The notes below the pieces were generated by a model. It searched no databases and was not told the DNA's origin. It saw nothing but the letters and a program-made list of their open reading frames with translations. DNA of 24,565 nucleotides from positions 1 to 24,565 of the IMG/VR virus record IMGVR_UViG_3300025117_000221. One strand, given 5' to 3'. Shown piece by piece: positions 3,344 to 22,526 of this stretch. This stretch comes from a virus. Numbering within the stretch: position 1 is the stretch's first letter; each line of letters starts with the position of its first letter. Position numbers and translations under genes: made by a program.

Positions 3344-3499
3344 ATGAAAACCATAAGTGCTGGAATATTGAGAGATAAGACACTGGATGGACTGGATAGA
3401 TTCTTTGACGGTACCGGCCTTAAATGGTGCTGCTGGGCGATAATCATCATGGCCGTCATGTACTTCGGGCCGGTTTGCATCCGGATCCTGGCGAGGTGA
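3344..3499 (+). CDS. Small single-pass membrane protein, 51 aa
   Basis: A 51-codon frame with a good ribosome site (CGGAGGAG, then ATG at 3344) lies in the 180-base gap before the transposase. Residues about 28-48 form one hydrophobic helix (WCCWAIIIMAVMYFGPVCI) preceded by a charged segment, with a short basic end (RILAR). It stops six bases before the transposase ATG, so the two are probably co-translated. Family and function are unknown. Confidence 0.6.
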   Translation: MKTISAGILRDKTLDGLDRFFDGTGLKWCCWAIIIMAVMYFGPVCIRILAR

Positions 3500-3504
3500 C
3501 GCTA

Positions 3505-6183
3505 ATGACGGGCGACTGGGCATTCGCGGCGAAGGAGATCAGCGGTTTTATGGGAAAATCTAAACAGGCCATTATAAAACGAGCGAAAAAAGAGGGGTGG
3601 CCGTTTGTTGAAGAACAAGGGAACGGGGGAATATCTCGCCAATACCCCCTGCCCGCCTTGCCGCCCGACGTCCAGGTCGCCGTATATAATAGGGAAGGCG
3701 CTCCGGAGTCGATGCTGCAGTATCTGTCGCCCGCCGTCGCCCTGGCGGCGATGGAACGGCCGGCCGCCGTGCCGACGTTTGCCGAGACAGTTCAGCCCGT
3801 GAGGGCCAAGCGGGTCCGTCGGGTGGCCCCCCGGGTCGGTTCCCTCCTCCCCGAGGGGTCCCCGGCGGCGCCCGCACATAATATAAAGGATACAGGGGGC
3901 GAGGAGACGGGAATCAATGGAAGCCTGCGCGGTTCCAACCGCCGATTAAGTTCGACGGCTCTGGCTGACAACCGGTCCGCATTTTCACCCCGCCCCGCCT
4001 CCTCATATAATAAGGAAGGGGCGGCAGCCGAACCCCTCCCGGAGGTCCCCGGCAGGAGTGCCGGGAGAACGCCGGCGGCCCCTTCCTTTCCTCCAACTAC
4101 TGTACAAACGTATAGTGCCGGCGGCAACACGCCCGCCCCCCGTTTCGCGCCCATGTCCGCCCCCGGCATCCTCCCTGTCCGACGCTACACCTACGAAGAC
4201 CTTCCCGCCTGGTCGCCCGAGCGCGCGATCTCCGGGGACGCCCTCCGTAATGTCCGGGTCGGCAAGATCCTGGCCGTCCTGCGCGACGTGGACGCGCAGC
4301 CGCGCGACTGGGCGAAAGGCGCGAATGCCTGGAAGAAGTACGTGGCAATCAAGCACGCGGTCGCCCTGCAATCGATCTACCGCTGGATCGACAAATTCGA
4401 CAAGCGCGGGATCGCCGGCCTCGAGCACCGCAAGTCAAACGCCGGAAAATCAAAGTCATGGTCCGTCGAGGCGTTAGATTTCTGGGTCGGCCTGACCCTG
4501 AAACCCGAGCACCGCAAGATCGACCTCGCCACCCTCTACCAGGATGCGCTGCTCATCGAGGCCGGCCGCCGCGGCTGGGAGATCGGCTGCTACGCGTCCG
4601 CCGTCTGGTGGCATCGCAAAAAGGCCACCCCGCTGCTGCTCGCCATGCAAAACGGCGGCATGCGCGCCCTGGACAACATGCTGCCCCCGGTCCTCCGCGA
4701 CTATTCCGATCTGGCCCCGTTCGAGATGCTCGTCGGCGATCAGCACCGCTTCGATTTTTGGGTGGTCGATGACGACACCGGCGCCGTCTTCCGTCCGGAG
4801 TGTTTCCTCTGGCAGGATCTGCGCACCCGGATCATCTATGGCATCGCCTTCGACCACCATTACGACGCCCATCTCTGCGGCCTGGCGCTGCGGGTAGGCA
4901 TACATATTTATGGATGTTTTACCGGCATTTACACCGACAACGGCAAGCCGGAACTCTCCAAATACATGATGGGAATCCTCTCCGAGATCCGCCACCTGGG
5001 CATGGAGTGGAACCTCACCGAAGACGCCCCGATGGACGTCCTGGACGTGGACCCGGAGGAGGTAGACCCGGTCGTCACGCGCATTGCACCCGGCACCCAC
5101 AAGAAGGCCGTCATTAAAAACGCCAAGGCGAAGATGAATGAAGGAACTTTCTGCGTGATCGAGAACGTCCTCCGGAGCCACTTCCGCATCGCCGGCAGCG
5201 TCAAACGCCTGACCGACGACCCCGACACCCAGGACATGGACCATGCCGAGGCGCAGAGATTAGCCAAGGAAAACAAGCTGCTTCTCGCCTCTGAATTCTA
5301 CCTGACCTGCTACCGCGCCGCCGATTATTACAACCGCGAAAAGCCCCATCGGGGCGTCCGCAAGGAGTGGATCTGGAAGCCCCGGCCCGCGGAAGCCACC
5401 CCGTATGAATGCCTGATGGCCTGCTACGCCGACGGTTGGAGGCCCCGCTGGATCTCCGACGAGGCGGCGGACCACATCTTCCTGAAGCGCCAATCCCGGA
5501 CGGTGCAGCTCGGCCGGGTGACGATCGACGGCGAGATCTACGAACACGACGCCCTCCTGGGCCTGCCCAAGAGCCAGCGCGTGGATTGCCGGTTCAACCC
5601 GTTGGAACGGGACGTGATCCTCGTTTATCTGGACGAAAAATTCCTCTGCCCGGCGCACCCGGTCGAATATTCATCCATGAAGAATGAAGATCTGGCGAAG
5701 AAAAAGATCGTGGAAAAGCGCGCGAAACGCAAGGCGATTGCCGACAACTTCCGCGCGATCATCAAGAGCATCCCGGACCTGCGGGAGTACTCCAAGATCC
5801 CGGAGGCCGAGAAGGTGGCGGCCGTCGTCGGCGAGGAGAAGAAGCGGATCGAGGCCGCCCGGGCGAACCTGACGCGCGCCCTCGAGCCCGAGGAGCTGGC
5901 CGCCGAGATGGCGAAGATGGAGGCCCTGAACGAGCGCCTGCCCGACGGCCGGTCGGCCGCCTTCGCCATGTCGGCGATGGGGAAGCCCGTACCGCCGCGG
6001 CCGTCAGAATTCATGAGCCGGGAGCTTCGTTATGAATGGTGCCTGAAGTGCGAAATGGCCGGCGGAGATCTGTCCGAGGAAGACAAGATTTTCGTGGGGC
6101 AACACGAAGCCAACATGACACCCGCCCAGCGCGAGCGCGCACAGTTTGATCATGAGTACGGGAGGGCATATGGGGCCGTATAA
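3505..6183 (+). CDS. MuA-type DDE transposase
   Basis: This is the transposase for integration and replicative transposition, 892 aa against about 660 in Mu. The ATG at 3505 follows GAGGTG with good spacing; an upstream in-frame ATG at 3424 lies inside the previous gene and lacks this. Domains: Mu-type winged-helix DNA-binding domain (about 1-63); a long Pro/Ala/Arg-rich linker (about 75-225); further HTH-like DNA-binding segments (about 230-330); an RNase H-fold catalytic core; then a charged, helical C-terminal region that in Mu contacts MuB. Likely catalytic acids are Asp412 (LVGDQHR), Asp478 (IYTDNGKPE) and Glu553 (CVIENVLRSH); the 66-residue Asp-Asp spacing is close to Mu's. The extra length is mostly the linker. 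The gene overlaps the following small one by 14 bases. Confidence 0.95.
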   Translation: MTGDWAFAAKEISGFMGKSKQAIIKRAKKEGWPFVEEQGNGGISRQYPLPALPPDVQVAVYNREGAPESMLQYLSPAVALAAMERPAAVPTFAETVQPVRAKRVRRVAPRVGSLLPEGSPAAPAHNIKDTGGEETGINGSLRGSNRRLSSTALADNRSAFSPRPASSYNKEGAAAEPLPEVPGRSAGRTPAAPSFPPTTVQTYSAGGNTPAPRFAPMSAPGILPVRRYTYEDLPAWSPERAISGDALRNVRVGKILAVLRDVDAQPRDWAKGANAWKKYVAIKHAVALQSIYRWIDKFDKRGIAGLEHRKSNAGKSKSWSVEALDFWVGLTLKPEHRKIDLATLYQDALLIEAGRRGWEIGCYASAVWWHRKKATPLLLAMQNGGMRALDNMLPPVLRDYSDLAPFEMLVGDQHRFDFWVVDDDTGAVFRPECFLWQDLRTRIIYGIAFDHHYDAHLCGLALRVGIHIYGCFTGIYTDNGKPELSKYMMGILSEIRHLGMEWNLTEDAPMDVLDVDPEEVDPVVTRIAPGTHKKAVIKNAKAKMNEGTFCVIENVLRSHFRIAGSVKRLTDDPDTQDMDHAEAQRLAKENKLLLASEFYLTCYRAADYYNREKPHRGVRKEWIWKPRPAEATPYECLMACYADGWRPRWISDEAADHIFLKRQSRTVQLGRVTIDGEIYEHDALLGLPKSQRVDCRFNPLERDVILVYLDEKFLCPAHPVEYSSMKNEDLAKKKIVEKRAKRKAIADNFRAIIKSIPDLREYSKIPEAEKVAAVVGEEKKRIEAARANLTRALEPEELAAEMAKMEALNERLPDGRSAAFAMSAMGKPVPPRPSEFMSRELRYEWCLKCEMAGGDLSEEDKIFVGQHEANMTPAQRERAQFDHEYGRAYGAV

Positions 6184-8898: not shown

Positions 8899-9320
8899 GT
8901 AAAAACGGAACCCCGAAAAGCAATGAAGCCTGGATCACCGACCGCGCCATCCGCAAGGGCACGATCCTGGCGGAACTCTCCTCCCACATTGGCGAGCCCA
9001 ACGCGATCGGCATGGGCGAGCTGTATGAGCTGGTGTATGGCGAGCCCTGGAGCAACCGGATCAACGACACACGGGCGCTCCGGACGGTGATCGAATGGAT
9101 GCGCTCCGAGGGCATCCCGATCTGCTCCGTCGCCTCGGCGAACGGCGGCGGCTACTACATCGCCGCGGCCGGCAGCGAGCTGGCCAATTATCTCCGCCGC
9201 GACGAGCGCCGCGCCCTCAAGATCCTCAAACGATGTGCGACGATCAAGAAGATCTCTCTGCCCGACTACCTGGGCCAGATGAAGCTGAACATGGAGGGCG
9301 GCGAAAATGAAGCAGCGTAA
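8895..9320 (+). CDS. Winged-helix-like early protein, 141 aa
   Basis: No named family is recognised with confidence. Residues about 45-95 (ALRTVIEWMRSEGIPICSVA followed by GGGYYIA) have the pattern of a winged helix with a Gly-rich beta hairpin, suggesting DNA binding. Small proteins of this type lie beside gemA and gam in many Mu-like prophages. It has a good AAAGGAG site, overlaps gemA by four bases and overlaps gam by 14 bases. Confidence 0.7.
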   Translation: MSKNGTPKSNEAWITDRAIRKGTILAELSSHIGEPNAIGMGELYELVYGEPWSNRINDTRALRTVIEWMRSEGIPICSVASANGGGYYIAAAGSELANYLRRDERRALKILKRCATIKKISLPDYLGQMKLNMEGGENEAA

Positions 9321-9792
9321 GGAATCGGAACTCAGCCTGGCCGAAATCAAGCGGGCGTCCGATGTTGCCCTGGCCGATATCGCCGACTGCTGCAAGCGGA
9401 TCGACGCGCTGAAGGCCGAGGCGGAGGCGTCCGTGTCAGTCATCCAGGCCAACTACAGCGCGATGCTCGCGCCGCTGCAATCGCAACTGGCGCAAAACGT
9501 CGCATGGCTCAAAGACGCGATGAAGAGCAATAAGAAGGTACTCTTCGACGGGACCGACATCGTCCGGCTGGTCAACGGCTCCCTGATCCACAGCACCGCC
9601 GACAAGGTCACGATCCCGCGCGACGCCCTGGCCAAATGCAAGGAGCTGGGCTTCGCCGAAGTGATCAAGATCGAAGAGTCGCTAAACCGCGACGCCGTCG
9701 AAAAGTGGCCGGACGAGCGCCTGATCCTGATCGGCGCGGCGCGGAAACAAAAGGAGGAATTCTCCTACGATCTGGCGGCGGTGAAGCCATGA
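9307..9792 (+). CDS. gam: Gam-like host-nuclease inhibitor / DNA end-binding protein
   Basis: The 161-residue protein matches Mu Gam in size (174 aa) and layout: a long N-terminal coiled coil (about 10-75) with repeated Ala/Glu/Lys, then a beta-rich segment (VLFDGTDIVRLVNGSLIHST) and a C-terminal helical part. Mu Gam is a Ku-like dimer that binds double-stranded DNA ends and protects them from RecBCD-type exonucleases. Here it would guard phage DNA ends. A GGAGGG site precedes the ATG, which overlaps the previous gene, and the stop overlaps the next start (ATGA). Confidence 0.9.
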   Translation: MKQRKESELSLAEIKRASDVALADIADCCKRIDALKAEAEASVSVIQANYSAMLAPLQSQLAQNVAWLKDAMKSNKKVLFDGTDIVRLVNGSLIHSTADKVTIPRDALAKCKELGFAEVIKIEESLNRDAVEKWPDERLILIGAARKQKEEFSYDLAAVKP

Positions 9793-9992
9793 GCCGCGGC
9801 CTGACCGACAAAGAATGCGCCTGGCTGGAGCGAATCGATAAAGAGGTCGACCGCGCATGGCCCGACCTTACTCCCTGGGAGCATAAGTTCTTCGATGACC
9901 TCATGGAGCGGTTCAAACGCTTCGGCGACCGCACCTCGATCTCCCCGAAACAATGGGAGATCATCACCAGAATCAGCGAGAAAATCCTATGA
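9789..9992 (+). CDS. Small hypothetical protein, 67 aa
   Basis: A 67-residue acidic-basic helical protein (GLTDKECAWLERIDKEVDRA) with Trp-rich helices and no recognised domain. It is held in place by ATGA overlaps at both ends (9789-9792 with gam, 9989-9992 with the next gene), which supports it as a genuine coupled gene. Small proteins of this type often follow gam in Mu-like early operons; the role is unknown. Confidence 0.7.
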   Translation: MSRGLTDKECAWLERIDKEVDRAWPDLTPWEHKFFDDLMERFKRFGDRTSISPKQWEIITRISEKIL

Positions 9993-10585
9993 ATTTCCCC
10001 TGCCCTTACTGCAAACGGGAGTTGAATCTCATGGAATTGCAAGCGGAAAGCGATTTGATGGCGATCATCAGGATGTCCGCCTCGTTTGGCAAGCACAACA
10101 ATCTCGTATGGACATACGCGGAACTCTTCGGGATTACCCCCATGCGCGCGAAGGCGAAGAAGCTCCGCTTGATTCTCGAAGAATTGAAAAAGCTCTTCGA
10201 CGGGGGAGGCTTCAGCTATCGTCAACGGCTCTACCGGATCACCCCGGAGGGTATCGCCGAGGCCCTGAACGTGGTCGTCAAGAAGAATTTCGCCGACGGG
10301 CTGGACTCTCATAACTACCTGAAAAAGGTCATGATCAACATCGCCGAGCGCGAAGACAAGACCGCCGGCCGCCGGGCAGAGAAAGACCTCCGCGCAAAGG
10401 AGGCGTCCCTCATGTCCGGCGGCCGGGAGGCTGGCCAGCCCCGCCACGATGCCCCCTACCCCGTCCCCGAGGAACAGGTCGAGGCCCCGCGCATGAAGAC
10501 GATGCCGCGAACCTCGCCGCTTACCGACGCCGAGCTCGAGGCGAACCGGCAGCGGCTGAAAAACATGCTCAAACAGATCGGATAG
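9989..10585 (+). CDS. Hypothetical protein with N-terminal CPYC motif, 198 aa
   Basis: The product starts MNFPCPYCKRELNLMELQ, where CPYC could be half of a zinc ribbon although no second Cys pair is present. Residues about 30-75 (AELFGITPMRAKAKKLRLIL) look like a helical DNA-binding segment, and the C-terminal third is a charged, Pro-rich, probably flexible tail. The family is not recognised. The start overlaps the previous stop (ATGA), and the gene is followed after 10 bases by a 30-codon membrane ORF. Confidence 0.7.
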   Translation: MNFPCPYCKRELNLMELQAESDLMAIIRMSASFGKHNNLVWTYAELFGITPMRAKAKKLRLILEELKKLFDGGGFSYRQRLYRITPEGIAEALNVVVKKNFADGLDSHNYLKKVMINIAEREDKTAGRRAEKDLRAKEASLMSGGREAGQPRHDAPYPVPEEQVEAPRMKTMPRTSPLTDAELEANRQRLKNMLKQIG

Positions 10586-10688: not shown

Positions 10689-10698
10689 GGAGGCGAAA

Positions 10699-11068
10699 AT
10701 GGCAATAGATCAAAGGAAATACGGCCCCGGCATCAAATCAAATTGTTGTCAACGACAAACCGGCCGCGGCCAGCGTCCTTGCTGGCACTCCGGAGATCGT
10801 CATCGCATTCACCGACGAACGCGATCGCACTCTCCATGACGCGCTGGTCGAGACGGCGCGCAGTCTCCGCCGGACGCCGGAACAGCAGGTGTTGTGGATG
10901 TTGCAATCTCAAATCGAATCGAGCATGAATGGCGAAAATATTTTTTCAGGAAAGGGGCTATCATGGCAGACATTTTTGTACCTGATCCACTGCGTAAATC
11001 CGTTGAAGCCGCGAGCGACGGGAAACAGACCGTTCTGCGCACGGCAAAAGGAAATCCGACCTACATGA
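10699..11068 (+). pseudogene. Small early gene interrupted by a frameshift
   Basis: An AAGGAGG site and ATG at 10699 open a frame (MAIDQRKYGPGIKSN) that ends at 10839 with an unlikely Arg/His-rich tail. One base over, the next frame is open from 10709 to a stop at 11066-11068 and looks protein-like (PEIVIAFTDERDRTLHDALV, then RTPEQQVLWMLQSQIES). The natural join lies at 10733-10743, where the pentamer TCAAA occurs twice in tandem; one extra copy would restore a single frame. The second frame then overlaps the following gene by over 100 bases, which is odd, so the true end is uncertain. Assembly error is possible. The function is not recognised. Confidence 0.5.
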
Positions 11069-11952
11069 ACATTGTGCCCCGCATGATGTGCGAGGACCTG
11101 GGCGACGGCCTCGGCACAGGCCCCCACGAGGCGTTTATCGTGCGCGGCCGGGAGGTCCCCGAGATCATGATCGGCACGTATCAGGCGAGCATCCATAACG
11201 GAGAGGCTCTCTCCCTGCCCTATCAGGTTCCGCGCACGATGATCAGCCGGGACGACGCGATGCGGGCCTGTCTCGCCTGCGGCCCCGATTACCATCTCGC
11301 AACCAACTGGGAGAGCGCGGCCCTCTGCCTCTGGATGATCAAAAACAACATCCCCAGGGGCAACACGGATTGTGGCCGATCCCATTCGCACCCCGAGGAG
11401 GCCGGCATCAGATGCGAGCATGGCAAGACGCTCACGGGCAGCGGCCCATTGGCCTGGCGTCACGACGGCACGTCCTGCGGGATCGCCGACCTGGTCGGCA
11501 ACGTCTGGGAGCATCAATGGTGTCTGCGATCGGTCGGCGGCCGGATCATGATGCCGCCGGACAACGATTTTACCCTCCCGGAGGAGGAATGGCCCGATAC
11601 GGGCGTCTGTTTCGACGGCGTCGCCGGAATCCGGATATCCGGCCGCGTCACGAAACGCGGGTGGTTCTCCGCGCCCTTCGCCGAGATCGGCGTCAAAACG
11701 GGATACGAGATCCCCGCATCCATGAAACGGGCATTGCTCTGCCCGTCCCTGCCCGCCGATCCGCCCGGGAACCTGGGCCGCGTATGGGTGGATAATAGCG
11801 ATAGGCGCGAAGCAGTTCCGCTCCGTTTCGGGGTTTGGTCCTACGCCGGCACTGCGGGCGTGGGGGCGTTGAGCCTCGGCTTTCTGCGCACGAGCGTCTA
11901 CTCGACTTTCGGTTTCCGTCTCGCCTATATCAGTAACGTGCGGTCGGTGTAA
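10963..11952 (+). CDS. FGE/C-type-lectin-fold protein, probable DGR variable target
   Basis: This is a 329-residue protein. Residues about 60-329 have the formylglycine-generating-enzyme (SUMF1) / C-type lectin fold, with GIADLVGNVWEHQ as the signature and a closing GFRLAY. The C-terminal 40 residues (about 287-326) read like the variable region of diversity-generating retroelement targets: an LRFG.W start, a YAGTAGVGALSL core, RTS, then GFR. Such proteins bind ligands or receptors through the variable face. Residues 1-55 may attach it to a larger assembly. The ATG at 10963 follows AGGAAAGGGG. Its location in the early/middle region, away from tail genes, is unusual for a receptor-binding protein. 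No catalytic sulfatase-activating role is implied. No reverse transcriptase was recognised in this window. Confidence 0.85.
   Translation: MADIFVPDPLRKSVEAASDGKQTVLRTAKGNPTYMNIVPRMMCEDLGDGLGTGPHEAFIVRGREVPEIMIGTYQASIHNGEALSLPYQVPRTMISRDDAMRACLACGPDYHLATNWESAALCLWMIKNNIPRGNTDCGRSHSHPEEAGIRCEHGKTLTGSGPLAWRHDGTSCGIADLVGNVWEHQWCLRSVGGRIMMPPDNDFTLPEEEWPDTGVCFDGVAGIRISGRVTKRGWFSAPFAEIGVKTGYEIPASMKRALLCPSLPADPPGNLGRVWVDNSDRREAVPLRFGVWSYAGTAGVGALSLGFLRTSVYSTFGFRLAYISNVRSV
11821..11925 (+). other. Candidate DGR variable region (VR)
   Basis: Over these 35 codons only 7 of 105 bases are A. The presumed variable positions (TTC, GTT, TCC, TAC, ACT, AGC, TTT, GTC, TAC, ACT, TTC) all end in C or T, as expected if they derive from AAC/AAT template codons mutated at A. 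The fixed positions (Gly, Trp, Ala, Val, Leu, Arg) use A-free codons. The VR may begin somewhat upstream; its template repeat was not found here. Confidence 0.6.
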
Positions 11953-11960
11953 ATCTGTTG

Positions 11961-11978
11961 CGCGGGCGGTAGCCCGCG
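11961..11978 (+). promoter_or_regulatory. GC-rich hairpin with GGTA loop just after the VR gene
   Basis: CGCGGGC-GGTA-GCCCGCG is a perfect 7-bp stem with a four-base loop, starting nine bases after the stop codon. DGR target genes are known to carry a GC-rich hairpin/cruciform with a GRNA-type tetraloop downstream of the VR that aids retrohoming, and GGTA fits. No T-run follows, so it is not an ordinary terminator. Confidence 0.6.
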
Positions 11979-12013: not shown

Positions 12014-12112
12014 TTGGACGAAGCCGGGTTGTATGAATTCTTGAAATGCCCCCACTGCCAGAAGATTTTTGGCGAAGTGCTCGTCATCGAGGGCCGGGCG
12101 GTCTACAAATGA
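12014..12112 (+). CDS. Small CxxC protein, 32 aa
   Basis: A TTG start at 12014 lies eight bases after ACGAGGAGG and encodes 32 residues with LKCPHCQKIFGEVLV, which has one CxxC pair followed by a beta-like segment. It resembles half of a zinc ribbon. Mu Com is a small zinc-binding translational regulator, but it is larger and has two Cys pairs, so equivalence is not claimed. The strong ribosome site is the main support. Confidence 0.4.
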   Translation: MDEAGLYEFLKCPHCQKIFGEVLVIEGRAVYK

Positions 12113-12193: not shown

Positions 12194-12343
12194 GGGGCTG
12201 CCCCGGCCTCAAGAGCGTCCGAAGTCATCGGCGTGAAAGGGGGTTTCGTTATTGGGCCAGTAAGCCCGAGCTGCCCGGATACCGCGAGGTCTGGGGCGCT
12301 GCCTTGTGCGCGTGACTACAGTTCGGGCTTATTTTTATGCCCG
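12194..12343 (+). promoter_or_regulatory. Highly structured leader upstream of the BRO gene
   Basis: This gene-free stretch is dense in hairpins: GGGG-CTG-CCCC (12194-12204), CCGA-AGTCA-TCGG (12219-12231) and GGGC-N6-GCCC (12254-12267). A long-range stem AAGCCCGA (12262-12269) with TCGGGCTT (12323-12330) encloses a CCGG/ACC-GCGA-GGT/CTGG tetraloop helix and a GCGC hairpin. CGGGC (12324-12328) can also pair with GCCCG (12339-12343). These pairings exclude one another, as in attenuators. The BRO ribosome site follows at about 12366. Function is inferred. Confidence 0.35.
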
Positions 12344-12378: not shown

Positions 12379-13047
12379 ATGAAAGAAAACAACAGCATCA
12401 TCGCATTCCATTACGCCAACGGCCCCGTCCGCATCGTCACCGACCCCTCCGGAAATCAGTGGTGGGTGGCCGCCGACGTCTGCGCCATCCTCGGAATCGC
12501 CAACCCGAGAGATGCCGTCGCTGCCCTGGACGACGACGAAAAGAATACCGTCGCCTTTTCCGACGGTATTCCATCGCGCGGAAATCCCAACGTAAACGTC
12601 ATCAACGAGTCCGGCCTCTACACGCTGATCTTCCGTTCCAACAAGGCCGAGGCAAAGGCGTTCCGCAAGTGGGTCACCTCCACGGTCCTTCCGGCGATCC
12701 GCAAGACCGGCGCCTTCGCCTCCGGCAAGTCCGTTGCGAAGCTCACCATCTTCCTGAACGACGTGGCCACGGCAGGCTTCTGCTCCTTCGACACGCTCAA
12801 AGAATACTGCTGGCTTCGCACCCTCGGCCTTCCGCTGGACATGGCGGGCCGCGCCACCAACATGGGCGCCACCCACCACATTCAGGCCGTCGACCGCAAG
12901 CTGAAGGCCGTCGGGGTCCGCTTCCCCAACCTCCTCTTTGCCACCCGGCGCAAGCTCATGGACGACGCCTTTGAAAAGCTCCTCGCCGAAGCCGAGATGA
13001 ACGCCGTCGGCGACGCCGTCGCGGCGAAGGAGGTGGCCAATGCATAA
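12379..13047 (+). CDS. BRO-N family protein, antirepressor-like
   Basis: This 222-residue protein has an N-terminal BRO domain (about residues 8-112): a WWVAADVCAILGIANPRDAV segment, then the ESGLYTLIFRSNKAEAKAFR pattern and WVTSTVLPAIRKTG. BRO-N proteins bind DNA, and many phage members act as antirepressors or late regulators. The C-terminal half (about 115-222) is an unassigned helical domain. The ATG follows AAGGAGG. The gene sits behind a structured 5' region and overlaps the next gene by eight bases. Its target is unknown; it could counteract the S24 repressor or a host regulator. Confidence 0.88.
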   Translation: MKENNSIIAFHYANGPVRIVTDPSGNQWWVAADVCAILGIANPRDAVAALDDDEKNTVAFSDGIPSRGNPNVNVINESGLYTLIFRSNKAEAKAFRKWVTSTVLPAIRKTGAFASGKSVAKLTIFLNDVATAGFCSFDTLKEYCWLRTLGLPLDMAGRATNMGATHHIQAVDRKLKAVGVRFPNLLFATRRKLMDDAFEKLLAEAEMNAVGDAVAAKEVANA

Positions 13048-16309: not shown

Positions 16310-16849
16310 ATGCCGGCAAGATCCAAAATAACGCAACTGCCGCCGGAGATCAAAGCGAAGCTGGATCGCCTTCTGATCGCACGGGGCTTTTCCGGATACG
16401 ATGGCATGACGGACGAGGTGAATGCGGAGCTTGCCGCCGCAGGTTATGCGATCACCCTCTCCCGGTCCGGGTTAGCGCGGTACGGACAGGGTTTCGAAGA
16501 GAAGATTGCCCTCTTGAAAATCGCATCGGAGCAGGCCCAGGCGATCACCGACGCCCTGGGTGATGACGCCGACAAAATGGGTCAGTCGCTGACCGTCCTT
16601 TGTCAGCAGCAGGCATTTAACGTCCTGGTAAAAATGAAGGAGCTTGATCCGGAAAACATCGATTTCAATAAGCTCACGGTAGCCATTTCTAAGTTGAACA
16701 AGGTCGCCGTGGATCAGAAGAAATGGCAGCGGGAAATCAAAGAAAAGGCGACGGCGACCGCCGACGAGGTGGTCAAGGTGGCCAAGCAGGGCGGCCTCTC
16801 AAATGAGAAGGCCGAGGTCATCAAGAAGAAGATTCTGGGGATCGTGTGA
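16310..16849 (+). CDS. DUF3486 protein (Mu gp27-like, probable small terminase)
   Basis: A 179-residue helical protein. The N-terminal region (LPPEIKAKLDRLLIARGFSG, then MTDEVNAEL and TLSRSGLARYG) is a helix-turn-helix typical of DUF3486, the Mu gp27 family, followed by a long coiled-coil region. Its place directly before the large terminase and its DNA-binding head domain suit a small terminase subunit that recognises the phage end. The ATG at 16310 is used; upstream in-frame codons overlap the gp26-like gene. It shares a four-base GTGA overlap with the terminase gene. Confidence 0.85.
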   Translation: MPARSKITQLPPEIKAKLDRLLIARGFSGYDGMTDEVNAELAAAGYAITLSRSGLARYGQGFEEKIALLKIASEQAQAITDALGDDADKMGQSLTVLCQQQAFNVLVKMKELDPENIDFNKLTVAISKLNKVAVDQKKWQREIKEKATATADEVVKVAKQGGLSNEKAEVIKKKILGIV

Positions 16850-18426
16850 CGACGAACGATAAAACACCCATCACAGATTTTGACCTGGCGCGCGGCGCTA
16901 CGGGCGTCCTTTTGCCCTATCAGGTCCGCTGGGTGGCGGACCAATCCCCGGTCAAATTCATCGAAAAGTCGCGACGTGTCGGCATCTCCTGGGCTGAGGC
17001 GGCCGACGATACGCTCTATGCATCCGAAAAGGGATCCGGCGAAAAGCGGAATGTCTGGTACATCGGCTATACCAAAGACATGGCCCTCGAGTTCATCAAC
17101 GACTGCGCCAACTGGGCGCGGGCCTACAACCTGGCAGCCTCCGTAATGGAGGAGTGCGAGGAGATCGACGAGGAAGAGGTCGGCGGCGTAGTCCTCGAAA
17201 AGAAGATCCTGGCCTACCGGCTCACGCTTGAATCGGGGTGGAAGATCACGGCCCTCTCCAGCCGCCCCACCAACCTCCGCGGAAAGCAGGGGCGCGTGGT
17301 CATCGATGAGGCCGCGTTCCACGACGATCTGGCCGGGCTCCTGAAGGCGGCGATGGCGCTCCTGATGTGGGGCGGCCAGGTGCGGGTCATCTCCACCCAT
17401 TTTGGGGACACGAACGAGTTCAATTCCGTCATCCAGGACATCCGGGCAAAGAAAAAACCCTACAGTCTCCACCGCATCGACTTTGACGAGGCCCTGGCCG
17501 ACGGCCTCTATAAGCGGATCTGCGAGGTCCTTGGCCGTGAGTGGTCGCCGGAGGTCGAGGCGGCCTGGCGGCAGGGCATCATCGATTCCTACGGAGACGA
17601 CGCGGACGAAGAGCTTTTCTGCATTCCCAGCCAGGGCACGGGGACCTTCATGACCCGGGCATTGATCGAGACCTGCCTCTCCGCGGAGATCCCGGTCATC
17701 CGGTACGAACAGCCCGCCTCGTTTGCCGAGCTCGCGGACCATATCCGCTACGCCGAGGTCAAGGACTGGTGCGAGGAGATCCTGGAGCCGCTGCTGCGCG
17801 CCCTGGATAAGGAACGAAATTCCGTCGTAGGCGAAGATTTTGGACGCACGGGCGATCTTTCCGTATTCATCCCGCTCCTGGAGCAGCAAAACGCCAACTG
17901 GCGCGCGCCGTTCCATGTCGAGTTGCGGAACATCCCGTTTCAACAGCAGGAACAGATTTTCTATTACATCTGCGACCGGTTGAACCGCTTCCGCTATGCC
18001 GCTCTCGACGCCCGGGGAAACGGCCAGTATCTGGCCGAACGCGCCATGCAGCGCTACGGCGCCGGGCGGGTCGCCCAGGTCATGCTGACGGAGCAATGGT
18101 ACAGGGAAAACATGTATCAATACCGGGCGGCGTTCGAAGACAAAACCATCCTGCTGGCCAAGGACGCCGACACCATCGAGGATCACCGTGCGTTCAAGGT
18201 CATCCGGGGCGTCGCCAAGCTTCCGGAAGTGCGAACCAAGGGGAAAGACAACAAAAAGCGCCACGGAGACGCCGGCGTCGCCGGGGCGATGGCCTGGTTT
18301 GCCGTGCATCAGGAATGGGGCGGCGGCCCGGTCGGATATGAATCCGTCACCCGGCGCCGTTTTGCCGGCGGCGACGGAGACGATGATTCTCCCGCAGGTT
18401 CATTCATGCAACGGGGGGCGTACTGA
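16846..18426 (+). CDS. Large terminase subunit (Mu gp28-like)
   Basis: This 526-residue packaging motor has an N-terminal ATPase and C-terminal nuclease. The ATPase shows a Walker-A-like SRRVGIS (42-48), Walker B RVVIDEAAF with Asp154-Glu155, and the coupling motif STHFGD (183-188). RNase-H-fold nuclease acids are probably Asp331 (GEDFGRTGD), Asp388 (AALDARGNG) and Asp475 (RHGDAGVAG). It cuts and translocates DNA into the prohead by headful packaging in Mu. GTG start at 16846 inside a GTGA overlap. The stop overlaps the portal ATG by one base. Confidence 0.95.
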   Translation: MTTNDKTPITDFDLARGATGVLLPYQVRWVADQSPVKFIEKSRRVGISWAEAADDTLYASEKGSGEKRNVWYIGYTKDMALEFINDCANWARAYNLAASVMEECEEIDEEEVGGVVLEKKILAYRLTLESGWKITALSSRPTNLRGKQGRVVIDEAAFHDDLAGLLKAAMALLMWGGQVRVISTHFGDTNEFNSVIQDIRAKKKPYSLHRIDFDEALADGLYKRICEVLGREWSPEVEAAWRQGIIDSYGDDADEELFCIPSQGTGTFMTRALIETCLSAEIPVIRYEQPASFAELADHIRYAEVKDWCEEILEPLLRALDKERNSVVGEDFGRTGDLSVFIPLLEQQNANWRAPFHVELRNIPFQQQEQIFYYICDRLNRFRYAALDARGNGQYLAERAMQRYGAGRVAQVMLTEQWYRENMYQYRAAFEDKTILLAKDADTIEDHRAFKVIRGVAKLPEVRTKGKDNKKRHGDAGVAGAMAWFAVHQEWGGGPVGYESVTRRRFAGGDGDDDSPAGSFMQRGAY

Positions 18427-21411: not shown

Positions 21412-22526
21412 AGAATATTCTGGTCATACTCAAGGATCTCGCGGGCGTCGCGCCGGCAGAATTCCAGGTGCTCCCGGAAGGGAAAATCGAGATCGAGGGC
21501 ATGGACCCGGCCTATATCGATGAAGCCGCGGCCCAAGCCGTGATCGCACATTTCAAGCGGCGCGGGAATGACATGGTGATCGACTATGAGCATCAGACCC
21601 TGGAGAATACCCAGGCTCCCGCCGCCGGGTGGATCAAGGATCTCGTCTGGAAGGGCGGCCAGGGGCTCTGGACCGTCGGACTGGACTGGACGGCGAAGGC
21701 CAAGGAATATTTGGCAAATCGCGAATATCGTTATTTTTCCCCGGTCATGGCCGTGGGAGCGGACGGTCGGGTTATGGGGCTGATCAATGTAGCCCTGACC
21801 AATAGCCCGAAAATAAACCACTTGCAGCCCATCGTGGCAAAGTACTGCGCCGCGGAGGCGCGAACAGACAAGGAGGAAAACATGAATTTGCTGGAAAAAC
21901 TGCGGAAGATGTTCGGCCTGGCTGCGGATGACGGGGAAGACAAGGTCCTGGAGGCGGCAACCCAGGTTGTCGCGAAGGCGCAGGTCGGCGGCGCCGTCGT
22001 GGCCTGCAAGGAGGTCATGGAGGCGATCGGAGCGAAGGCGGACGCCGGCAAGGATGAGGTCGTCCGGATTATCGGGGCTTTGAAAGGACCGGCCGTCGTG
22101 GCCTGCAAGGAGATCCTGGAGGCCGTCGGCGCCAAAGAGGGCGCGAACAAGGATGAGGTCCTCCGGATCGTCGCCTCCCTGAAGGCGCCGGGCGACGTGG
22201 CCGTGCAGCTCAGCCAGCAAGTCGCGACGTTGACGGCCAAGCTGACCGCGATGGAGCAGCAGGATCTGGTGACGCTGGCCCTCAAGGAAGGCAAGACCAG
22301 CCCGGACGAGCTCGAAAAGTGGGGCCGCGATCTGGCGCTGAAGAATCCGGAATCGTTCAAGTTGATCGTGCTGTCGCGCCCGGTGGGCAGCGTGATCCCG
22401 GTGAGGGAGATCGTTATCGCGAAGGATGTTCCCGGCAGAGGCCTCGACGATTCGCAGAAAACGATCAACGCCATGTGCGGCGTCGATGAGGACACGTTCA
22501 AAAAGTACGGTCCGAAGGGGCAGTAG
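21408..22526 (+). CDS. Head maturation protease with C-terminal scaffold (Mu gpI-like)
   Basis: A 372-residue Mu-type I protein. Residues 1-155 are the protease part with MVIDYEHQT, AAGWI and the YRYFSPVMAV...INVALTNSP region typical of the family; Asp/His in DYEHQ and Ser in RYFSP are plausible active-site elements. Residues 159-372 are the scaffold part, also made separately from an internal start (see Z). Two 33-residue repeats occupy about 197-262. In Mu, I cleaves the scaffold during head maturation. It shares ATGA with gpG, and precedes the decoration-like and gpT genes. Confidence 0.92.
   Translation: MKNILVILKDLAGVAPAEFQVLPEGKIEIEGMDPAYIDEAAAQAVIAHFKRRGNDMVIDYEHQTLENTQAPAAGWIKDLVWKGGQGLWTVGLDWTAKAKEYLANREYRYFSPVMAVGADGRVMGLINVALTNSPKINHLQPIVAKYCAAEARTDKEENMNLLEKLRKMFGLAADDGEDKVLEAATQVVAKAQVGGAVVACKEVMEAIGAKADAGKDEVVRIIGALKGPAVVACKEILEAVGAKEGANKDEVLRIVASLKAPGDVAVQLSQQVATLTAKLTAMEQQDLVTLALKEGKTSPDELEKWGRDLALKNPESFKLIVLSRPVGSVIPVREIVIAKDVPGRGLDDSQKTINAMCGVDEDTFKKYGPKGQ
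21882..22526 (+). CDS. Internal scaffold protein Z, in-frame start within gene I
   Basis: An unusually strong ribosome site (AAGGAGGAAAAC) precedes an in-frame ATG at 21882, codon 159 of the protease gene. Translation from it would give a 214-residue protein starting MNLLEKLRKMFGLAADD, rich in Lys/Glu/Ala helices, lacking the protease domain. Mu makes its scaffold Z in the same way from inside gene I. It includes two 33-residue repeats and a heptad-rich segment (VQLSQQVATLTAKLTAMEQQ) suited to oligomerisation. Confidence 0.8.
   Translation: MNLLEKLRKMFGLAADDGEDKVLEAATQVVAKAQVGGAVVACKEVMEAIGAKADAGKDEVVRIIGALKGPAVVACKEILEAVGAKEGANKDEVLRIVASLKAPGDVAVQLSQQVATLTAKLTAMEQQDLVTLALKEGKTSPDELEKWGRDLALKNPESFKLIVLSRPVGSVIPVREIVIAKDVPGRGLDDSQKTINAMCGVDEDTFKKYGPKGQ
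21996..22193 (+). repeat. Tandem 99-bp repeat in the scaffold region
   Basis: Two adjacent 99-base units (21996-22094 and 22095-22193) both encode VVACKE(V/I)(M/L)EA(I/V)GAK, then DEV(V/L)RI and an ALK/SLK end. They diverge at many third positions, so the duplication is old or selected. Unit length keeps the frame. Confidence 0.8.

Follow-up and report, generated by a model that had tools for sequence, protein, structure and literature searches.

The stretch of DNA analysed here (the window) comprises the 24,565 bases of the IMG/VR record IMGVR_UViG_3300025117_000221, a fragment of a Mu-like phage. Its genes follow the order repressor, MuA, MuB, GemA, Gam, target gene, Bro-N, M15 peptidase, terminase, portal, MuF and protease, and the homologues of MuA, MuB, GemA, Gam, Mu protease I and MuF/portal found in it bear out the Mu-like setting proposed in the initial annotation. 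On the forward strand, the genes for a Mu-type transposase A (3424..6183; Pfam Mu-transpos_C and DDE_2) and an early Mu Gam homologue (9307..9792; Pfam PF07352, E 2e-22) are followed by a PHROG_2161-like gene (9953..10585; E 2.8e-8) upstream of the target ORF (10963..11952). Downstream of the latter, on the same strand, are a short zinc-ribbon-like ORF of 32 aa (12014..12112), recognised by sequence comparison and for which Pfam gave nothing, and a Bro-N antirepressor-like gene (12379..13047; Pfam PF02498, E 1e-24). The target gene, assigned earlier to the early/middle region, does lie between Gam/PHROG_2161 and Bro-N, ahead of the M15 peptidase and terminase genes.

The segment between the end of a short ORF (~10688) and the target gene, at 10694-10962, resembles a small frameshift-broken gene (MAIDQRKYGPGIKSN, then another frame). 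Directly 5' of Bro-N, at 12255-12335, is a long imperfect inverted repeat, AAGCCCGAGCTG ... CAGTTCGGGCTT and then ATTTTTA, which resembles a terminator or regulatory element. Two head-to-tail 99-nt repeats, 77% identical, lie within the Mu protease I gene (21993-22190). Megablast of the window against named phages gave no match. Genome contigs searched with the window protein alone yielded no relatives and, when searched with the alignment of its clade (see below), best relatives of ≤46% identity; no bacterial host was therefore assigned to the window phage.

The protein of 329 aa encoded by the ORF at 10963..11952 matches PHROG_2889 across its entire length (E 4.8e-88). DGR targets homologous to it occur in named phages, among them VHML, BalMu-1, Bise and ACA1. 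Its AF2 model, which rests on a 50-sequence alignment, has a pLDDT of 92.7 and a pTM of 0.92, as compared to a pLDDT of 46 obtained with 13 sequences. The best three Foldseek matches of the model are chains of 5VF4, TaqVP (TM 0.90), and the sequence profile of the target matches 5VF4 with E 3e-117. These matches identify the ORF as a member of the PHROG_2889/TaqVP family. TaqVP, the DGR variable protein from a Thermus aquaticus prophage (PDB 5VF4; PMC6328139), shares with the window protein 35% identity and the full-length fold (TM 0.90 on the query), and in both the variable repeat (VR) is C-terminal within a C-type lectin fold. The lectin-fold protein with a C-terminal VR described in the initial annotation is thus consistent with the predicted structure. 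The window protein is shorter than TaqVP (329 vs about 381 residues) and, unlike TaqVP, is not encoded next to its reverse transcriptase (RT).

The 3' end of the gene is poor in adenine. The count of 7 A in the 105 bases of 11821-11925 was confirmed; all 105-base segments taken across the record average 24.1 A (sd 6.1), and the minimum of 7 is confined to segments starting at 11815-11822. Ungapped alignment to the template repeat (TR) of the phage itself places the VR at 11815..11924 on the forward strand, with adenine-specific differences, and GFR ends it, as noted previously. The codon pattern put forward earlier holds in large part. Most variable codons, AAY in the TR, end in C or T, an exception being ACG>TCG at 11902, which ends in G; the fixed codons are A-free apart from ACG at 11890, which retains its A. 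A feature missing from that annotation is a hairpin/cruciform of the DGR target-site type, CGCGGGC-GGTA-GCCCGCG, at 11961..11978 on the forward strand. It begins 11 nt past the start of the stop codon, has a 7-bp all-GC stem and a GGTA loop (P about 1.5e-4 when the 60 nt following the stop are shuffled), and is the single GC-stem hairpin of the GRNA-loop type in the window. Phage VRs are known to be followed, 4-34 bp downstream, by a GC stem of 7-10 bp with a 4-nt GRNA loop, and in BPP-1 the hairpin is required for efficient retrohoming (PMC3240598).

The absence of an RT and a template repeat from the window, reported earlier, was confirmed: neither an RT (RVT_1) search nor a TR search detected one in the window record or in the overlapping contig G001. 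Contig G001 shares 12,877 bp with the window at 99.98%, from 11689 up to the window end, carries an identical VR and extends into the tape-measure gene. Scanning with the tape-measure protein of G001 located the right arm on contig L312 (IMGVR_UViG_3300025154_000428), which is 100% identical to the bridging G001 across 12,557 bp and shares 5,059 bp with the window with 1 mismatch. The phage considered here is therefore the window, G001 and L312, three contigs of different assemblies joined via near-identity rather than read from a single molecule. On L312, a tail-side target of 346 aa (16795-17835) is followed in order by a hairpin, Avd (from 17900), the TR (18283-18392; 37789-37898 in window numbering) and the start of an RT (from 18545), of which the first 58 codons are present up to the contig end; the full RT is found in the close relative L166. 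The right-end DGRs of G003 and G034, which are transposase/capsid relatives, were considered as the missing arm and rejected, as their target and TR type differ. In these Mu-like right ends (L141 and L142), an ORF of ~265 aa between the tail DGR target and an Avd-like gene resembles, judged by eye, a Dam-type DNA adenine methylase.

The TR is the best match of the window VR anywhere on L312, the tail VR being the second. Relative to this TR, 19 of the 26 template adenines are changed in the window VR, against 8 of the remaining 84 bases (Fisher 8e-10); the adenines have changed to T (8), G (6) and C (5), and template G is unchanged throughout. For the VR of the tail target, the corresponding differences are 15/26 and 4/84. 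Adenine-specific differences from one TR in both VRs indicate one DGR with two targets about 25 kb apart, and the differing outcomes at most adenines in the two VRs indicate separate diversification from one template. On the evidence of these repeats, the ORF at 10963-11952 is a DGR target (variable) gene. That it is an ordinary FGE-sulfatase-like or lectin gene with an A-poor 3' end arising by chance is scarcely credible, as the Pfam FGE-sulfatase match pointing that way is weak (E 0.13) and the TR match refutes it, along with the hairpin, the TaqVP fold and the global A minimum at the VR.

The initial annotation had left undecided whether the target is orphaned or depends on a retroelement elsewhere in the phage or host, and had suggested a search for an RT and an A-mismatched repeat. 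The TR, Avd and RT start on the overlapping right arm, L312, support service from within the same phage, and the orphan option is disfavoured by the confinement of the mismatches mainly to template adenines. An orphan or decaying target, whose VR would be a relic no longer overwritten, is accordingly a poor prospect: the ORF and hairpin are intact, the changed adenines have mostly reached states unlike those of the tail VR, and the matching TR and DGR genes occur in the same phage. The points in its favour are the 8 non-A differences and the near-circular relative G062, in which a related target occurs and an RT and TR went undetected. The 8 non-A differences suggest either that the last overwriting was not very recent or that the TR has drifted. 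Third codon positions account for five of them, and two have states common to the tail VR, which likewise suggests some TR drift or an old last overwriting.

The window gene is thus very probably the second, remote and trans-served target of a two-target phage DGR, a judgement made apart from its function. The DGR core (tail target, Avd, TR and RT) would be some 25 kb further downstream in this Mu-like genome, at its right end. The sequence contains one TR, two VRs with adenine-specific differences, both hairpins, Avd and RT codons 1-58. The error-prone RT, together with Avd, would make cDNA from the TR RNA while misreading adenines, and this cDNA would then replace either of the two VRs, which are each marked by a GC-stem/GRNA hairpin; retrohoming in trans and current activity are what established DGR biology would predict. 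The product appears to be a soluble C-type lectin with a variable binding face, the gene of which lies among middle genes and is presumably expressed with them.

Phage DGRs are described as diversifying mainly host attachment proteins (PMC8144416), and the prototype of the mechanism is the Mtd DGR of Bordetella phage BPP-1, which follows the same GC stem and GRNA loop rule as the window phage (PMC3240598). Unlike the latter, BPP-1 has a single target in its tail region, and Mtd is structurally only weakly similar to the window protein. Closer counterparts are orf35 of Vibrio phage VHML and gp50 of Bacillus phage BalMu-1, PHROG_2889-type DGR targets with the same hairpin type, in which 7/7 and 10/11 TR/VR differences, respectively, are at adenines; unlike the window target, they come after baseplate and fibre genes and directly before their own RT. 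A same-family target also occurs in the tail region of Klebsiella phage KPN U2874 (L149, 5995-7089), the flanking 6 kb of which has no annotated RT.

DGRs with two targets are already known in phages. A figure cited in PMC10743442 puts them at about 13% of DGR cassettes, and the same paper describes two phages with different targets within one cassette. Two VRs occur in Lagaffe_CP, Lelie and CP11 (PMC11792537). Faecalibacterium phage Lagaffe/Lagaffe_CP (PMC5883640, PMC11792537) resembles the window phage in having one TR, a tail target adjoining Avd and RT, and, by exonuclease, Gam-like and ERF genes of the early region, a second target homologous to the tail one. Our comparison of its remote VR with the tail-side TR gave differences at 11/25 A and 0/80 non-A positions; unlike the window target, this protein is devoid of the N-terminal part and has a C-terminal extension after the VR. 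The second target of Dulem virus 37 likewise differs from its tail-side TR at 16/27 A and 4/85 non-A positions (computed here). Both second targets are outside the tail cluster and fall outside the clade of the window target, their exact place in the tree being unsure because both are long branches.

Relatives of the target were gathered from viral contigs, and trees were built with the VR columns removed. The window target falls in a clade of 18 genes from 15 contigs (bootstrap/SH-aLRT 100/100), 16 of which were recovered again at 100/100 in a second tree. No description of such a clade of non-tail targets was found in the literature covered, which excluded many subscription papers and all preprints. 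Tail and early proteins of annotated phages served as references for labelling neighbours by homology, and no labelled tail gene was found near clade members (within about 8 kb, as far as the contig extends). Replication, partition, transposition, methylase or packaging genes are near the target in 14 of the 15 contigs, and in L159 the RT is the single labelled neighbour. Tail genes precede most targets outside the clade. Some of these are without labelled tail neighbours, so the labels are good and not complete; two such targets, L194 and L213, look tail-associated from a tape-measure-like upstream gene read from the sequence. L260 and L266 had been taken as early targets by identity and were discarded, as the tree groups both with tail targets. 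A PHROG_8734-type gene is directly upstream of 78 of 121 other targets vs none of 17 clade members, and the own tail target of the window phage is likewise without it.

In the Mu-like phages L255 (60% identity) and L259 (48%), the target occupies the same position, downstream of MuB, GemA and Gam. An L255 ORF (7869-8507) resembling the PHROG_2161-like gene of the window is likewise upstream of the target, and a 77-aa homologue of the zinc-ribbon-like ORF comes after it. The tree places L255, the window and L166 together and L259 elsewhere in the clade; the gene therefore appears to move between phages. The closest relative, in L166 (IMGVR_UViG_3300028916_000084), is 62% identical and, like the window target, 329 aa long, and its TR resembles that of the window phage, with 26 of 27 template adenines kept. 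Unlike the window phage, L166 carries a full target-Avd-TR-RT cassette between ParB and primase genes and is without recognised Mu genes. An RT also adjoins the clade target in L159, L161, L163, L164 and L258. In L163 and L164, paired tandem clade targets per TR and RT are found near primase genes, with VRs that differ at 13/23 and 14/22 A (L163) and at 14/24 and 11/24 A (L164), the TR differences being almost all at adenines. Contig G062 (L278; IMGVR_UViG_3300042876_000983), of 43 kb with a 163-nt end repeat at 98.8%, is probably a near-complete circular phage. Its single clade target, a candidate orphan, adjoins primase-like and ParB-like genes.

Trans-targeting of the kind proposed for the window phage is also indicated by the repeats of two larger phages. 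The VR of clade member L156 (90.5-kb contig) differs at 11/25 A and 0/85 other bases from the TR of tail DGR L265, from which it is separated by about 51 kb when the contig is taken as linear, and that of L160 (79.9-kb contig) differs from the L167 TR at 10/21 A and 3/91 other bases.

The initial annotation had suggested a function other than that of the usual receptor-binding tail tip. This possibility is strengthened by the fully supported clade without recognised tail neighbours and by the separate tail target. The window target lies outside the tail cluster, contrary to what would be expected of a tail receptor-binding protein, and the occurrence of its branch outside tail gene clusters in many phages suggests that its job may not be host-receptor binding. 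Since the non-tail position is conserved across very different phages and a tail target is already present, we favour, at about even confidence, a non-tail protein that would bind, through its variable face, a molecule of the host or of a competitor in the course of infection or lysogeny.

The main alternative, held to be somewhat less likely, is that the virion has an additional receptor-binding lectin with a gene outside the tail operon, so that two diversified lectins widen the host range. Several observations fit it. The window protein shows full-length homology to VHML orf35, BalMu-1 gp50 and other tail targets and retains the full length of its tail relatives, in keeping with a virion role; the two MTD-like targets of Lagaffe_CP, suggested by the authors to be a doubled host-range mechanism, provide a precedent (PMC11792537); and the only targets found in G052, a 52.9-kb contig, are non-tail ones. 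It is opposed by the lack of recognised tail genes near any clade member, by the tail target that the window phage already has, and by the missing PHROG_8734-type gene, though this is also missing at the tail target of the same phage. An adaptor-like tail-side gene in G001 was set aside as a sign of virion attachment because L314, a relative with a tail target, is arranged alike. A small tail-side gene pair (L006, 7169-7807 of G001) precedes the tape-measure gene here and in L314, away from the tail target, and is homologous to genes directly before the tail targets in G003 and G034.

The reading of the window protein as a non-tail binder may extend, more tentatively and at somewhat less than even confidence, to a monophyletic branch of DGR lectins that would act as non-virion, early/middle variable binders in unrelated phages, served in trans by the tail DGR; their ligands could be, for instance, a competitor, the product of a resident prophage or a variable defence protein of the host. 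Phage DGRs have been read almost wholly as host-range machines at tail tips. A supported non-tail clade, overwritten from the template of a tail target tens of kb off, makes non-tail diversification testable. Such targets are overlooked by RT-centred searches on fragmentary viral contigs, where A-depletion together with a GRNA hairpin can flag them. If the proposal is true, both sides of an infection, outside and inside, would be diversified from one template.
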